From IMG/VR virus record IMGVR_UViG_3300047276_000199, positions 1-34,223 of that record: a stretch of DNA of 34,223 nucleotides, one strand, 5' to 3'. Below, one piece after another: positions 25,147 to 34,223 of this stretch. The notes under the pieces were generated by a model. That model did not search any database, had not been told where the DNA came from, and was given only the letters and a program-made list of their open reading frames with translations. Made by a program: the position numbers and the translations under genes. This DNA comes from a virus. The first letter of the stretch is position 1; every line of letters starts with the position of its first letter.

Positions 25147-25662
25147 ATGCCCCTCCCCGACTATGAGATCCACGATCTCTGCAAGCGTCACGCGATGGTG
25201 GTGCCGTTTGATCCTGATCTAGTCAACCCGGCCAGCATTGATGTGCTGCTGGGCGATCGGATCATGATCGAGGTGCCTGAGTCACCGCAGCTGCAGATCC
25301 ACGGCATCGCCGGCCACACAGCAGAGGATCCGTACTGGCTGCAGCCGGGTGAGTTCTGCCTGGCGGAAACGCGCGAGATCTTCAACCTGCCCGACTGCAT
25401 CGCTGCGCAGTTCGTGCTGAAGTCCAGCCGCGCACGCGAAGGTCTTGAGCATCTGCTGGCCGGCTGGTGTGATCCTGGCTGGCATGGCAGCCGCCTCACC
25501 TTGGAGCTGAGCAACGCGCGCAAGATGCACCCGGTCGCAATCTGGCCTGGCATGAAGATCGGCCAGATGGTGTTCCACAAGATGGAAGGCATCCCCGGCC
25601 GCAGTTATGCGGTGACCGGCAGGTACAACGGCGACCTAGCGGTGACAGCCAGCAAGGGCTAG
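25147..25662 (+). CDS. dCTP deaminase / dUTPase-fold protein
   Basis: This 171-residue protein resembles the Dcd family, which deaminates dCTP or removes dUTP. FVLKSSRAREGLEHLLAGWC (about 95-114), WCDPGWHGSRLTLELSN and IWPGMKIGQMVF match the conserved motif order of dCTP deaminases (SSxAR, DPG..G..TLE.N, pG..IgQ). It would lower dUTP or supply dUMP for thymidylate synthesis. It is the last rightward gene of the late block, right after the endolysin and before a terminator, so its expression would be late. Some dUTPase-fold phage proteins have regulatory roles, which cannot be excluded. CTAACCAGCTGG immediately precedes its ATG. Confidence 0.85.
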   Translation: MPLPDYEIHDLCKRHAMVVPFDPDLVNPASIDVLLGDRIMIEVPESPQLQIHGIAGHTAEDPYWLQPGEFCLAETREIFNLPDCIAAQFVLKSSRAREGLEHLLAGWCDPGWHGSRLTLELSNARKMHPVAIWPGMKIGQMVFHKMEGIPGRSYAVTGRYNGDLAVTASKG

Positions 25663-25682: not shown

Positions 25683-25709
25683 AGCCCGGTCTAGCCAGCC
25701 GGGTTTTTT
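25683..25709 (+). terminator. Rho-independent terminator inside the integrase 3' end
   Basis: AGCCCGG (25683-25689) pairs with CCGGGTT (25699-25705) around a nine-base loop, including one G-U pair, and a six-T run occupies 25704-25709. It follows the Dcd-like gene by 20 bases and ends rightward late transcription. The 3' half lies within the last codons of the convergent integrase gene (I-K-N-P-A-G-stop). Confidence 0.85.
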
Positions 25710-26815
25710 ATTTGCCCGGCCACCAGCGCAGCAGCAGCCGCGGCCGACTCATCAATCAGATGAGCGTAACGCTGCGTCGTCTGCGGGCTGGCATGGCCAA
25801 GCAGACCACCGATCTGTGGCAGTGTGAGCCCGGCGCTGATGGCCAAGCTCGCGTAGTTGTGCCGCAGATCATGGATGCGCAGGTTTTGGATGCCGGCTGC
25901 AGCGATCAGTTGCGACCACATGCGCCAGTAACTGACCAGCGGGCCATTGCCATCGCCAGCGATGATCCACTCGCTGTTTGTCTCGCATCGCAGCCTTCGT
26001 AGGATCGCCATAGCAGCAGGCGGCAGATGCACTACGCGCTCACTGCCATCGCCGCCTGTCTTGTGGGCTTCGGGTGGCAAGGTCAGCCGCGCTGCACCCT
26101 CATCGAGCCAGCACCAGCGCGCGCACATGATTTCGCGCACGCGGCAGCCAGTGAACAGCAGCAGCCTGACCATCTGACCAAACCGCCAGCGGATGCCAGC
26201 CGCAGGGAGCTGATCCAGTGCGGTGAGCAGCCGTTGCAATTCATCGCGGGACAGGTAGCGCCGTCGTTTGCGCTCGATGTTGGCGATCACGCCACTGCAT
26301 GGGTTGGTTCCCTGTGGCCGCAGCTCCCACAGCTCGGCCAGTGACATGGCCTTGCTGAGCACCTCAAGCGATCGGTTTGCGCGCGTGGGCCGATCAGCGC
26401 TGTGAACGTTGAACCACGCGATCACTTGCCGTCGCTGCAGCTCGACGACCTTTGTCGATCCAAATACCGGCAGCAGGTGCAGCCGCCAGATCAGTTCGTT
26501 ATTGGCCACGGTGCCGGGCCGCAGCCGCGGCCAGTGCTCGCGCTTGATGCGCTCCAGCAGCTGGGCAATAGTTGGCGCTCTGCGGCGCTCCTGCCTTGCG
26601 CTGGTGGGTGCCTGTCCGGTGGCGACGGCTGCCAGCAGCTTGTGCGCCTCCTCCCTGGCCAGCGTGCGGCTCACCACATCAGCCCGGCCGATCCGGTGGT
26701 GTTGTTGCTTGCCGCCGGGCTCCCGGTAACGCAGATACCAGGTGCGCACACCTGACGGCAGCTGCAGGATGCCAAGGCCGGGAACTTTCGAGTCTGCTAT
26801 CCATTCGCGCACCAT
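25691..26815 (-). CDS. int: Tyrosine-family site-specific integrase
   Basis: This leftward gene encodes a tyrosine recombinase for phage integration. Taken from the ATG at 26815 it has 374 residues, with an N-terminal arm-binding segment (MVREWIADSKVPGLGILQLP), a SAM-like core-binding domain, and a catalytic domain. In that numbering the active residues are Arg225 (TGCRVREI), Lys252 (HKTG), His315 and Arg318 (IHDLRHNYAS), His341 (LLGHAS) and nucleophile Tyr350 (TQRYAHL). A GGAGG nine bases before this ATG supports it over the longer frame reaching 26884. Its start region overlaps two candidate integrase-binding repeats, which could couple binding to autoregulation. The attP core lies about 120 bases upstream. 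Confidence 0.93.
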   Translation of the reverse strand: MVREWIADSKVPGLGILQLPSGVRTWYLRYREPGGKQQHHRIGRADVVSRTLAREEAHKLLAAVATGQAPTSARQERRRAPTIAQLLERIKREHWPRLRPGTVANNELIWRLHLLPVFGSTKVVELQRRQVIAWFNVHSADRPTRANRSLEVLSKAMSLAELWELRPQGTNPCSGVIANIERKRRRYLSRDELQRLLTALDQLPAAGIRWRFGQMVRLLLFTGCRVREIMCARWCWLDEGAARLTLPPEAHKTGGDGSERVVHLPPAAMAILRRLRCETNSEWIIAGDGNGPLVSYWRMWSQLIAAAGIQNLRIHDLRHNYASLAISAGLTLPQIGGLLGHASPQTTQRYAHLIDESAAAAAALVAGQIKNPAG

Positions 26816-26822
26816 TCGCGCA
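26804..26822. repeat. Candidate integrase arm sites, left pair
   Basis: TTCGCGCA occurs at 26804-26811 and again at 26815-26822, 11 bases apart, about one helical turn. The integrase start codon lies at the second copy. An inverted copy (TGCGCGAA) is at 26847-26854 and a looser one (AGCGCAAA) at 26872-26879. Repeats with the same spacing on the other side of attP make arm-type sites likely. Confidence 0.65.
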
Positions 26823-26846
26823 ATCCTCCGTGAAACGGCGTGAATC

Positions 26847-26879
26847 TGCGCGAACAAACGAGAGAAGGTCAAGCGCAAA
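26847..26879. repeat. Candidate integrase arm sites, inverted copies
   Basis: TGCGCGAA at 26847-26854 is the exact reverse complement of the arm-site unit TTCGCGCA. AGCGCAAA at 26872-26879 is the reverse complement of TTTGCGCT, one mismatch from the right-hand copy TTTGCGCA. Both lie between the left pair and the attP core. Confidence 0.45.
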
Positions 26880-26937
26880 AGCATTGACCGGCCAGAGGCT
26901 TAGCGAGCCACAGTGAACAATCGGTAACTGATACACC

Positions 26938-26986
26938 GAGGCTCATAACCTGAAGGCCGCAGGTTCAAATCCTGCCCCCGCAACCA
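26938..26986 (+). other. attP: attP core: 3' half of tRNA-Met(CAT), initiator-like
   Basis: From GAGGCTCATAACC to the CCA at 26984-26986 this is the 3' half of a tRNA: anticodon loop CTCATAA with anticodon CAT, T-arm GCAGG-TTCAAAT-CCTGC, acceptor strand CCCCGCA, discriminator A and CCA. The 5' half is missing: no TGCGGGG lies upstream and the outer anticodon stem does not pair. GGCTCATAACC and the CCCCCGCAACCA end are those of bacterial initiator tRNA. Tyrosine-integrase phages often carry such a part-tRNA as attP so that the host gene is restored on insertion. The crossover is likely in the anticodon loop, where AGG-7-CCT gives a dyad. Confidence 0.85.
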
Positions 26987-26991
26987 AAAGC

Positions 26992-27023
26992 GCCCGCTAG
27001 GTCAGTGACTTAGCGGGCTTTTT
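26992..27023 (+). terminator. Rho-independent terminator after the tRNA half
   Basis: GCCCGCTA (26992-26999) pairs perfectly with TAGCGGGC (27011-27018) around an 11-base loop and is followed by five Ts (27019-27023). It begins five bases after the tRNA CCA. After integration it would end transcription of the repaired host tRNA gene and keep it out of phage DNA. Confidence 0.9.
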
Positions 27024-27052
27024 GATTCTTGAACTAGCAGCCTGCGCGGCCG

Positions 27053-27071
27053 TTCGCGCACTATTTGCGCA
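27053..27071. repeat. Candidate integrase arm sites, right pair
   Basis: TTCGCGCA at 27053-27060 and TTTGCGCA at 27064-27071 are again 11 bases apart, matching the left pair in sequence and spacing on the other side of the core. The pair overlaps the last codons of the small leftward gene ending at 27061. Confidence 0.65.
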
Positions 27072-27249
27072 TCGGATGCTTCAGCTCCGCCATTCGAATC
27101 CGGTGGATCCGGTTGGGCGCTTCGCAGGGGTCATCGAGCGGGATCAAGGTGTAGTCGTCACAGCCATGGCGCTCGGCCCAGACTTGGGCGCCGATGTGGT
27201 TGTCGAACGGTCCAACGTGCCAGGGACCGATGCGGAGGATGTAGGTCAT
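27061..27249 (-). CDS. Small hypothetical protein next to attP
   Basis: This 62-residue protein begins MTYILRIGPWHVGPFDNHIG and contains DDYTLIPLDDP and RIHRIRMAELKHPMRK. I recall short proteins with this WHVGPF/GPFD...DDYTLIPL pattern from cyanophages and picocyanobacteria but know no function. The start at 27249 is chosen over one 30 bases earlier because the extra N-terminus is basic and unlike the rest. It lies alone between attP and a divergent promoter-like region. An excisionase is possible from position, but no HTH is visible. Confidence 0.6.
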   Translation of the reverse strand: MTYILRIGPWHVGPFDNHIGAQVWAERHGCDDYTLIPLDDPCEAPNRIHRIRMAELKHPMRK

Positions 27250-31327: not shown

Positions 31328-31557
31328 GGTCTCTGTTGGTTAGTTGGGTGATTTGGCATCCCGCGGAGGTTTCGGGCCTCATAAGCCTCCACCTCAGCCA
31401 CGGGGTACAGGACACGGCCTCCGATCTTCACGAACCTCGGGCCTCGGTTCTGGCTCCTCCAGTTGTCCAGCGTGGCCAGCGTCACGGTGTTGCACCACCG
31501 CGCCACCAGATCCACCGGCCGCAGATAGCCAGGCTGTTCAGAAAATCTCATCGTCAT
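31324..31557 (-). CDS. AlpA/excisionase-like HTH protein
   Basis: This 77-residue protein has a winged-helix, MerR/HTH_17-like core: YLRPVDLVARWCNTVTLATL, then DNWRSQNRGPRFVKIGGRVL and YPVAEVEAYEARNL. The pattern, with a Lys-Ile-Gly-Gly-Arg wing and Tyr-Pro-x-x-x-Val, is that of AlpA- and excisionase-type DNA-bending proteins. The ATG at 31557 has GGAGG five bases upstream; ATGs at 31560 and 31551 compete. It overlaps the end of recT by 20 bases. As excisionase it would bend attP, but distance from int leaves room for a regulatory role. Confidence 0.75.
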   Translation of the reverse strand: MTMRFSEQPGYLRPVDLVARWCNTVTLATLDNWRSQNRGPRFVKIGGRVLYPVAEVEAYEARNLRGMPNHPTNQQRP

Positions 31558-32221
31558 CATTCCCTCCCTCTGCCGGTGCTGCAGCTGCAGGCGGCTCCAC
31601 GATCTTGGCGTTTAGGTCTGTGATGGTCACCGGCGCCGGTGCCGCAGGGCTCACGTCCACCGTTTCAACGTCGATCACCTCCTCCTGCGTCTGGATGCCC
31701 ACCAGCAGGTCAGGGATGAACAGACGCCCCCAAAAGGCCGCAGCCCGGTAGCGGATCATCAGATCGGGCATGGTCAGCCATTTGCTGCCGCTCTTACTCG
31801 CCCACCCTTCTTTTTTGGCCATGGCCATCGTCACCTCAGGACCGCGCAGCTCCTCGCCGGTCTTCAGCTCGGTGGCGACGGCCGTGCAGGCCAGCGTGTC
31901 ACCCTTGCCGGTGATGTCGTACCACAGCGGGCTGAAACGCCCGCATCCGTTGATCAGGCCAATGATGAACTGGCTCGACCAGCTCGGCCGGCCGTGGATG
32001 ATGTGCAGGTTTTGCATCACCATCAGCGGATCCATGCCCATCCGCCGGCTGATGTTCAACGCCACCAAGCAGTTGGCAAAGCCCTGCTGCCCTTGAAACT
32101 GCGGCGGGATTAACGTGCTGCTGGCCAGCGCCTTGGCGATCCGCTGGGCGTCCTCAAACGCCTGGATGCCGCTGAACACGCCAGCGGGTTGTGTTGTCGT
32201 GAGTGCTGTGCTGTCGGTCAT
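31538..32221 (-). CDS. recT: RecT-family single-strand annealing protein
   Basis: This 227-residue protein resembles phage RecT-type annealing proteins. The core reads FANCLVALNISRRMGMDPLM (48-67), VMQNLHIIHGRPSWSSQFII (68-87), then LINGCGRFSPLWYDITGKGD, which fits the family phrase about marker-frequency with HGRPxW. It would anneal strands made by the adjacent exonuclease. The C-terminus is a flexible Pro/Ala tail ending EGGNDDDEIF, strikingly close to the SSB tip DDDIPF. The start ATG lies two bases after the exonuclease stop, placing it in the same operon. Total length is a little short of RecT (269). Confidence 0.85.
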   Translation of the reverse strand: MTDSTALTTTQPAGVFSGIQAFEDAQRIAKALASSTLIPPQFQGQQGFANCLVALNISRRMGMDPLMVMQNLHIIHGRPSWSSQFIIGLINGCGRFSPLWYDITGKGDTLACTAVATELKTGEELRGPEVTMAMAKKEGWASKSGSKWLTMPDLMIRYRAAAFWGRLFIPDLLVGIQTQEEVIDVETVDVSPAAPAPVTITDLNAKIVEPPAAAAPAEGGNDDDEIF

Positions 32222-32222
32222 G

Positions 32223-33104
32223 TCAGTAGGTCTCAATGTCAGGTGCTGTGGTGGGCATTGATCCATCCGGCCGCGGCCGCATCCAGCCGGGCAGACTGAT
32301 CAGCTCGATCTGCTCGCTGTAGCTCGGCCAGCTGTCAGCTGACTTGCACTGAGCCAGCAGCGCCAAGTCGCGCGCGGCATTAGCAGCGCCTGCAGCGATC
32401 ATTTCGTCGTCTGCGGCGTACACGGCAACTGCGTGCGGCCATTTCTTCTCCACGCACACGAACACAAACTGGGCGGGGCGCTGGCCAGTGGCAGCCTGCA
32501 ATCCATCTAGATACCAGCTGGCCTGCAGGTGGTATCTCCATGAGCTGATGCTCTTGCGGAAGCCAGCCGGGCTCGCGTCTTCGGTGGTCTTGAGATCCAC
32601 CACGAGCGAGCCGTCGCTGGTCAGCCAGTCCGGCCGACACTTGCACTCCAGCCCGGTCGCCTCATCCGTCCACATGTGCGTGGTCTCAGCAGCGCCCGGC
32701 AGGTTGAGCAGCATCGCAGCAGCTGGGTGCTTATACACCGCACGCGCCATATGCATCACCTGCTCGGCATCACTGCGGCTGATCACCGTACGACCGCTGG
32801 CGGCCACCGTGAACGCCTCCCATTCCGCCTTGCCTTGCTTGGTGCGCCGGTCGATCCCTTCAGGCGCCATCACATAGCGCGCGTCCCATGCGTCCAGTTC
32901 TAAGACGTGCGTATGGAGCGCAGTGCCCAGCAGCATCGCAGGCGTTGGCTCCGGCTCCACCCGGTTCGGGTCCACATAGCGCGCCCAGTAGTGCAGCGGG
33001 CTGCGCGCCACTAGGTCCAAGTGGCTTTTGCTGACTGCGGAGTGCCGGTGATACTCGGCGTTCTCCATAAACTCGATCTCATCAGGGCTCACGCAACCTA
33101 TCAT
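32223..33104 (-). CDS. RecE-like PD-(D/E)XK exonuclease
   Basis: From the ATG at 33104 this has 293 residues. It matches phage RecE/exonuclease VIII-like proteins: SKSHLDLVARSPLHYWARYV (25-44), GTALHTHVLE (60-69), then CKCRPDWLTSDGSLVVDLKT (154-173) holding candidate Asp159, Asp170 and Lys172, and WRYHLQASWYLDGLQ (189-203) with the Gln-x3-Tyr helix. It would chew back double-stranded ends to feed RecT. AGGAAATG gives a good binding site for this start; ATGs at 33107 and 33068 are alternatives. It is the first gene of the leftward early operon, sharing a divergent region with the helicase. Confidence 0.87.
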   Translation of the reverse strand: MIGCVSPDEIEFMENAEYHRHSAVSKSHLDLVARSPLHYWARYVDPNRVEPEPTPAMLLGTALHTHVLELDAWDARYVMAPEGIDRRTKQGKAEWEAFTVAASGRTVISRSDAEQVMHMARAVYKHPAAAMLLNLPGAAETTHMWTDEATGLECKCRPDWLTSDGSLVVDLKTTEDASPAGFRKSISSWRYHLQASWYLDGLQAATGQRPAQFVFVCVEKKWPHAVAVYAADDEMIAAGAANAARDLALLAQCKSADSWPSYSEQIELISLPGWMRPRPDGSMPTTAPDIETY

Positions 33105-33206
33105 CATTTCCTCCCCCTTCACTGCGGTTCCCGCTAACTCATTGATTTTCTTTGGCTTTCTGGCCTCTGACTCGACTACCACTAGCCGTATCGCAGGTCT
33201 AGTCCC
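33105..33206. promoter_or_regulatory. Divergent control region of exonuclease operon and helicase
   Basis: This 102-base stretch separates two divergent gene sets. It contains a pyrimidine-rich run (TTGATTTTCTTTGGCTTTCT, about 33142-33161) and CTAG repeats flanking CCGTATCGCAGGT near 33182-33202. No clear -10/-35 is visible on either strand. Two opposite promoters with an operator are expected from the layout, but not shown by sequence. Confidence 0.4.
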
Positions 33207-34223
33207 ATGAGTCTTATCCTCCGTCCCTATCAACAGCGCGCCGTTCACGATCTCCGCCTCGCCTTCCGCGATGGCGCACGCGCCCCCCTGCTGGTGCTAC
33301 CCACTGGTGGCGGCAAGACCATCTGCATGGCTGAGATCCTTAGAGGTGTGGCCGCACGCGATCGGTCGGCGGTGGTGCTTGTGCATCGCCGTGAGCTGAT
33401 CACACAGACCGCCAACAAGCTCACACTCGCCGGCGTAGACCACGGTGTAATCGCGGCCGGCACACAGCCAACCGATCACGCCATCCAAGTCGCTTCAGTC
33501 CAGACGCTCGTGCGCCGTCTGGAGCAGGTCAATACCACCCCCGATTTGATCGTTATTGATGAGGCGCACCACGCCACCGCAGGCAGTTGGAAGCGTGTTA
33601 TGGACCACTGGCCCGACGCTCTCCGCCTTGGAGTCACCGCCACACCTGTTCGCCTGGATGGGCGCGGATTATCAGCAGTCTTCGACCGCCTTATTCATGG
33701 CCCGTCTGTTGCGGACCTGATCTTCACTGACCATTTGGTCAATTCTCGGATATACGCACCGCCTGCTGTCGCGGATCTGTCTGCGTTGAAACGTCGAGCT
33801 GGTGACTTTGCCACCGACCAGGCAACAGCTGCAATGGATCGCCCCACGGTCACGGGTGATGCGATCGACCATTACCAGCGCCTAGCTAAAGGCCAGCGCG
33901 CGATTGTTTTCTGCTGCAGTGTTCAGCACGCGGAGCATGTCGCCGCGCAGTTCCTAGCTGCTGGCATCCCGGCTGCCACGCTGCTCGGTTCAACGGACTC
34001 GCTGCGGCGGGATGCCACAGTCTCCGCGTTCGCCTCCGGTCAGCTGCAGGTGCTGGTGACCGTTGATGTGGTCTCTGAGGGCTTCGACATCCCCGCCGCC
34101 TCCTGCGCCATCCTGCTCCGCCCCACCCAGTCGCTCGGCTTCTACCTGCAGCAGGTCGGCCGCGTGCGGCGCCCCGCACCCGGCAAAACCCACGCAGTGA
34201 TCCTCGACCACGTTGGCAACGTC
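33207..34223 (+). CDS. SF2 DEAD/DEAH-type helicase, partial at window end
   Basis: The reading runs from ATG 33207 off the end of the window, 339 residues with no stop. Motifs: RPYQQRAV (6-13, Q-like), LPTGGGKT (31-38, Walker A), VIDEAHH (116-122, DEAH), GVTATP (142-147, motif III), VSEGFDIP near 290-297 (motif V) and QQVGRVRRPAPGK from 315 (motif VI, arginine finger). These order and spacings are those of ResIII/UvrB-like SF2 helicases found in phage replication modules. It would unwind DNA for replication or recombination. It diverges from the RecE-like gene and begins a rightward early transcript. Confidence 0.92.
   Translation, partial: MSLILRPYQQRAVHDLRLAFRDGARAPLLVLPTGGGKTICMAEILRGVAARDRSAVVLVHRRELITQTANKLTLAGVDHGVIAAGTQPTDHAIQVASVQTLVRRLEQVNTTPDLIVIDEAHHATAGSWKRVMDHWPDALRLGVTATPVRLDGRGLSAVFDRLIHGPSVADLIFTDHLVNSRIYAPPAVADLSALKRRAGDFATDQATAAMDRPTVTGDAIDHYQRLAKGQRAIVFCCSVQHAEHVAAQFLAAGIPAATLLGSTDSLRRDATVSAFASGQLQVLVTVDVVSEGFDIPAASCAILLRPTQSLGFYLQQVGRVRRPAPGKTHAVILDHVGNV

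Follow-up and report, generated by a model that had tools for sequence, protein, structure and literature searches.

The attP of CrimD and other Cluster K1 phages carries two pairs of 11-bp arm-type sites around a tmRNA-derived core that lies 5′ of int, and a terminator-like hairpin stands between the core and one of the pairs (PMC3203893). Direct arm-type pairs are attributed to the attP of mycobacteriophages L5 and Giles, going by the citations given in the CrimD paper (cited in PMC3203893). The KplE1 integrase IntS represses its own promoter, with an arm site overlapping the −10 region of int, and the same is predicted for most tRNA-associated integrases (PMC2951348). A further mode of integration, tRNA-dependent lysogeny, has been described for mycobacteriophages Fionnbharth and Gaia (PMC10865867). 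Of the cultured Synechococcus siphophages, S-CBS1 and S-CBS3 are without an integrase, and S-LBS1 has one, for which an att motif was proposed but is weak, and integration is unproven (PMC6157547).

We analyzed the viral record IMGVR_UViG_3300047276_000199 over its 34,223 bp (positions 1 to 34,223), hereafter the window. Its closest cultured phages are the Synechococcus siphophages S-CBS3, S-LBS1, and S-CBS1, with a portal protein identity of 61–63% and ~70% DNA identity in the head region. Because portal and head genes match these phages, we infer a picocyanobacterial host. The likeness ends at the integrase, which in the three phages is either missing or of another position and type, and comparison of the consensus arm region with cultured phages gave no credible match. 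The S-LBS1 integrase (284 aa, 23% identity over 176 aa, at another genome position) was rejected as a homologue. It is shorter and of a different type, and the published S-LBS1 att motif CAGCAGCCGCTTGG (our locus L228), which lies inside the portal and helicase genes and is not tRNA-derived as described (PMC6157547), merits re-examination. Other genes recognized in the window include a fusion of a ParB-like protein and a DNA methylase at the left end (5–1261), a dCTP deaminase-like gene adjoining int (25147–25662), and RecT-like and exonuclease VIII-like recombination genes at the right end (31538–33248).

The window encodes a tyrosine integrase of 374 aa on the minus strand (25691–26815) with arm-binding, SAM-like, and catalytic domains (PF00589, 1.5e-18; PF13356 Arm-DNA-bind_3, 8.3e-12; PF14659, 8.7e-7) and a match to the phrog_1 integrase (3.4e-62). 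It has both the N-terminal arm-binding domain (PF13356) and the conserved R, K, HxxR, H, and Y of the catalytic domain of lambda-type tyrosine integrases; R248, K275, H338/R341, H364, and Y373 (numbered from the long ORF) were invariant in 13 integrase sequences. The start codon is the ATG at 26815–26813, so that the gene begins at 26815 and not at 26884, the start of the longest ORF. No match to a recombination directionality factor (RDF) was found among ten ORFs scanned.

The original prediction was that matching repeat pairs of 11-bp spacing flank a tRNA-derived core and serve as arm-type sites of this integrase. The coordinates and sequences of both pairs proved correct. The int-side pair (26804–26822, plus strand) reads TTCGCGCA-CCA-TTCGCGCA and consists of two exact copies 11 bp apart, one inside integrase codons and invariant in relatives (26804–26811) and one (26815–26822) whose last base is, on the int strand, the A of the int ATG. 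This second unit is kept although the start codon shifts relative to it among relatives. The far pair (27053–27071, plus strand) reads TTCGCGCA-CTA-TTTGCGCA, with an exact copy at 27053–27060 followed by TTTGCGCA at 27064–27071, one base off the consensus. A single inverted unit, predicted at 26847, is indeed an exact copy of TTCGCGCA on the minus strand (26847–26854); it lies upstream of the int-side pair, at a start-to-start distance of 32 bp. A weaker copy claimed at 26872 had to be abandoned as a fourth site: it lies beside TTGACC (minus strand, 26872–26867) and is not conserved, relatives having unrelated bases there. The actual repeat unit is ~11 bp long, TGCGCGAA-Y-G/A-G on the int strand, and the copies within a pair therefore abut head to tail. 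Counts of the single octamer TTYGCGCA were dropped as evidence, since it is not enriched (8 in the window vs 5.75 expected from shuffles). Exact TTYGCGCA-N3-TTYGCGCA pairs occur twice in the whole record, both at attP, and a count over the record returned no other pair with 11-bp spacing. Such a pair appeared in none of 300 Markov simulations of the window, and the analytic expectation is 0.0002.

Between the pairs lies the attP core (26940–26986, plus strand), a 47-bp 3′ part of a tRNA of the tRNA-Met type that comprises the anticodon arm (CAT at 26944–26946), variable loop, T arm, acceptor 3′ strand, and CCA. The Rfam tRNA model matched 26923–26975 with 20.4 bits; a value under the gathering score is what a partial tRNA should give. 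Directly after the CCA follows a terminator-like hairpin (26992–27018, plus strand; 12 pairs and a T tail; −23.1 kcal/mol, z −5.8) that is probably the terminator of the rebuilt tRNA. A 62-aa ORF (MTYILRIGPWHVGPF..., 27061–27249, minus strand), conserved in many relatives and without a Pfam or PHROG match, terminates in the far pair, whose 3-bp spacer serves as its TAG stop codon. The stretch between core and int-side arm (26857–26936) is degenerate in the window; in relatives it holds 3–4 TCACG-type repeats in 10-bp steps, with an autocorrelation peak at 10–11 bp, and it may be a region for an RDF or a bending protein. CrimD and Cluster K1 resemble the window in the two pairs, the core 5′ of int, and the hairpin between the core and one pair. 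Because CrimD too has two 11-bp pairs and a hairpin, the arm-pair layout of the window belongs to a known kind. The pairs of CrimD are mutually inverted, whereas those of the window are direct and accompanied by the extra single inverted unit; sequence and target also differ, as presumably does the host. Arm binding by the L5 integrase has reportedly been shown experimentally. L5 has several additional arm sites compared with the window, and its likeness is one of arrangement.

Relatives of the integrase were found at 31 IMG/VR loci. An alignment of these on the int start shows three elements in nearly every one: the far pair, the lone inverted copy, and the int-side pair. The spacing within pairs is 11 bp, and the inverted copy stands 32 bp from the int-side pair, a distance constant in most relatives; conservation of the pairs and of their spacing at attP was thereby borne out. 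Units have drifted in a few divergent members (L027–L031), e.g., to TGTGCAAA, and arm units are absent from L032, whose integrase is 38% identical. A scan of 2.9 million IMG/VR viral contigs with the pattern TGCGCGAANNNTGCGCGAA gave at least 120 matches, and among those listed, 50 of 120 loci had two pairs in the same direction, 207–251 bp apart. The reversed-letter control of the pair pattern matched 12 times in the whole collection and was never doubled. A narrower pattern for the int side, made up of the inverted unit, 24 bp, and the pair, occurred in 64 of the 2.9 million contigs; in 63 of them an integrase of the window's family begins at the pair, and the 64th contig ends 50 bp past it. 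Only the int side entered this search, so that looking for the far pair amounts to an independent check; the far pair was present with 0–3 mismatches in 50 of 52 distinct sequences, the other two contigs ending first. Every close relative with sequence on both sides has an intact attP. No integrated copy of a close relative was found, no integrase exceeding ~40% full-length identity in any genome searched, and matches in the genome-contig search were distantly related integrases of other bacteria only. Exact arm pairs were also seen near a more divergent integrase (L133, L134, and L224), and two loci (L135 and L149) have an exact arm pair with a 4-mismatch partner 182 bp away.

The arms remain unchanged while the core between them varies over seven tRNA isotypes and both orientations. 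Normally oriented cores are 3′ parts of tRNAs of Met type (CAT), Lys (TTT), Phe (GAA), Thr (TGT), and Asn (GTT), and reversed cores derive from Arg (TCT), Gly (CCC), and Thr (TGT). The CAT anticodon of the window is exactly 89 bp from the inverted unit, and this distance is the same across the Met, Lys, Phe, Thr, and Asn cores in normal orientation; an alignment of 45 sequences is gap-free from core to int (one row ending at a contig end was left out of the conservation profile). Pair-to-pair distances around normally oriented cores fall at 207–209, 229, 239, and 249–251 bp, i.e., in steps of ~10.5 bp, with a period-10.5 concentration of R = 0.94 over 19 clusters; taking the four length classes alone, random lengths reach such concentration in 0.15% of draws. 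Five reversed cores (215–228 bp, off by 1–3.5 bp) were excluded from this periodicity test. In these loci (L140, L151, L154, L170, and L174), which have Arg, Gly, or Thr targets, the core is inverted relative to arms and int, the distance to the far arm is ~61–62 bp, and the int-side distance is lengthened instead. The target tRNA tracks the integrase tree (11 changes vs a shuffled mean of 26).

Repeated sites on both sides of the core are common to the integrase family, and their sequence is different elsewhere. Three distant relatives (L034, L035, and L042; integrases of 30–36% identity) come from genomes of Rhodobacteraceae and Phyllobacteriaceae. Immediately in front of int, next to a displaced tRNA end, each has an 11-bp tandem pair that differs in sequence. 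If these pairs are prophage arm sites, a second pair is expected at the other prophage end beside the rebuilt tRNA. Searching each whole genome with its own pair retrieved the second pair with 3 (L034), 1 (L035), and 0 (L042) mismatches, in each case just beyond an intact tRNA-Arg. The shared cores are 47–49 bp long, and the two ends, which lie on different contigs of draft assemblies, presumably bound one prophage. A pair TTTGAAAGCTTTGTAAAAGCT in L257 was rejected as a weak chance match with no tRNA nearby. Anticodon-to-pair distances in the distant relatives are 119–130 bp on the int side and 87–88 bp on the far side, compared with 121 and 106 bp in the window, and the geometry is thus more or less preserved, whereas the arm sequence varies along with the integrase.

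Judged from sequence, the two head-to-tail pairs and the inverted copy are very probably arm-type sites for the N-terminal domain of the integrase, flanking an attP core made of the 3′ part of a tRNA (CAT) and used in lambda-like integration at a tRNA-Met-type gene. Conservation, linkage to the integrase family, the Arm-DNA-bind_3 domain, and the pairs of the distant relatives lend strong support to the architecture originally predicted. By analogy with the lambda-type paradigm, the N-terminal domain would hold the arm pairs and the catalytic domain the core, so that the intasome bridges arm and core. Strand exchange between attP and attB would take place at the anticodon region of the host gene, which would be of the tRNA-Met type. 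The 3′ end and terminator of the host tRNA would then be supplied by the phage core and hairpin, and the tRNA would thereby be rebuilt. In the provirus, the far pair would come to lie beside the rebuilt tRNA, and int would be at the opposite end with the int-side pair and the inverted unit.

The int-side sites bear on int expression as well. Because they overlap the leader, ribosome-binding region, and start codon of int, bound integrase may well lower its own expression, and we give autorepression about even chances. A sigma-70 consensus promoter scan for int yielded nothing above threshold; a weak possible promoter (TTGACC, 18 bp, CAGATT; 26843–26872, minus strand) has the inverted unit inside, and its −35-like TTGAC/TTGC is conserved in relatives. 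The KplE1 intS likewise belongs to a tRNA-targeted integrase (PMC2951348). It differs in that the int promoter of the window is weakly recognizable, autorepression is putative, and no TorI-like RDF was found. The overlap of the int-side pair and inverted copy with the int leader and start would also suit operators for a phage repressor or another regulator of int, with no role as integrase sites. This is very improbable, given that the far pair lies more than 230 bp away, beyond core and terminator and at the end of another ORF or beside a tRNA gene, that distances to the core are either constant or differ by helical turns, that the sites track the integrase family, with the pair nowhere else in the record, and that no repressor gene was recognized among the ORFs scanned. 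Selection could instead act on RNA, not (only) on protein binding, if inverted and direct copies paired into a hairpin masking the ribosome-binding site of int. RNA transcribed across the inverted copy would fold into a 13-bp helix around the Shine-Dalgarno sequence and start codon (−26.4 kcal/mol, z −2.1), but such folding leaves the far pair unexplained, has no need of the first direct unit, and would lose the inverted copy if transcription started at the putative promoter. We regard this explanation as unlikely, if less so than the other alternatives; the hairpin could also coexist with arm function.

To our knowledge, RDF sites of lambda and its relatives lie on one side of the core. Repeats that bind the excisionase and not the integrase, and that control directionality only, are hard to reconcile with the same pair on both sides of the core here, as in the arm sites of CrimD (PMC3203893), and no RDF gene was recognized next to the repeats. 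RDF sites too are short direct repeats about one turn apart, and relatives of the window carry the TCACG-type repeats at 10-bp steps in the same region; even so, we consider this reading as improbable as that of regulator operators. Conservation by coding constraint or shared descent alone is the least credible of all and can practically be set aside. The int-side pair does encode MVREWIA in the window, and close relatives have much sequence in common, but the arm DNA is constant while the reading frame and int start codon shift; this codon falls within the pair in the window, at the end of the pair in the L124 group, and past it in L143 and others. The far pair, in turn, is read through in other frames by other relatives or has a tRNA gene there in place of the ORF, and arm units average 1.92–2.0 bits vs 0.89 in the inter-arm stretch.

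All 12 relatives with short Lys cores, which cover the anticodon loop only (L119, L126, L145, L150, L158, L194, L197, L200, L212, L217, L227, and L236), encode a complete tRNA-Lys(TTT) in the orientation of the core, the gene lying ~8 bp past the far pair. Among the long-core Lys relatives, eight have sequence that reaches past the far pair, and none of these carries such a gene. The short-core state requires at least four changes on the integrase tree. These short-core relatives look like cases of tRNA-dependent lysogeny, by analogy with Fionnbharth, which likewise carries a full tRNA-Lys(TTT), and the position of the replacement tRNA could allow readthrough from the promoter of the host tRNA. 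The window differs from Fionnbharth and Gaia in that it has no tRNA gene and its 47-bp core, which is not short and runs from the anticodon arm through CCA, would rebuild the tRNA. We lean, with some reserve, towards the broader reading of a re-aimed integration module, in which one integrase family with one conserved complement of arm sites has come to target at least seven tRNA isotypes in both core orientations. In this reading, arm-to-crossover distances are quantized in helical turns, and lineages switched repeatedly between two states, one that rebuilds the host tRNA and one that brings along a whole replacement tRNA just past the far pair, where its expression could be driven by the promoter of the host tRNA.

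Lysogeny in picocyanobacteria has so far been hard to show. If the host assignment is right, the attP of the window points to a tRNA with a CAT anticodon, whose 3′ half is the target, and to a recombinase, and the two would be testable on plasmids. The integrase family amounts to a set of natural intasome variants, with the same arms, swapped cores, helical-turn spacing, and other arm sequences in distant members, and from this variation the geometric rules that arm-type integrases follow can be read at the sequence level. If the reading of a re-aimed module is true, tRNA-dependent lysogeny, which was shown in actinobacteriophages (PMC10865867), would reach beyond that group.
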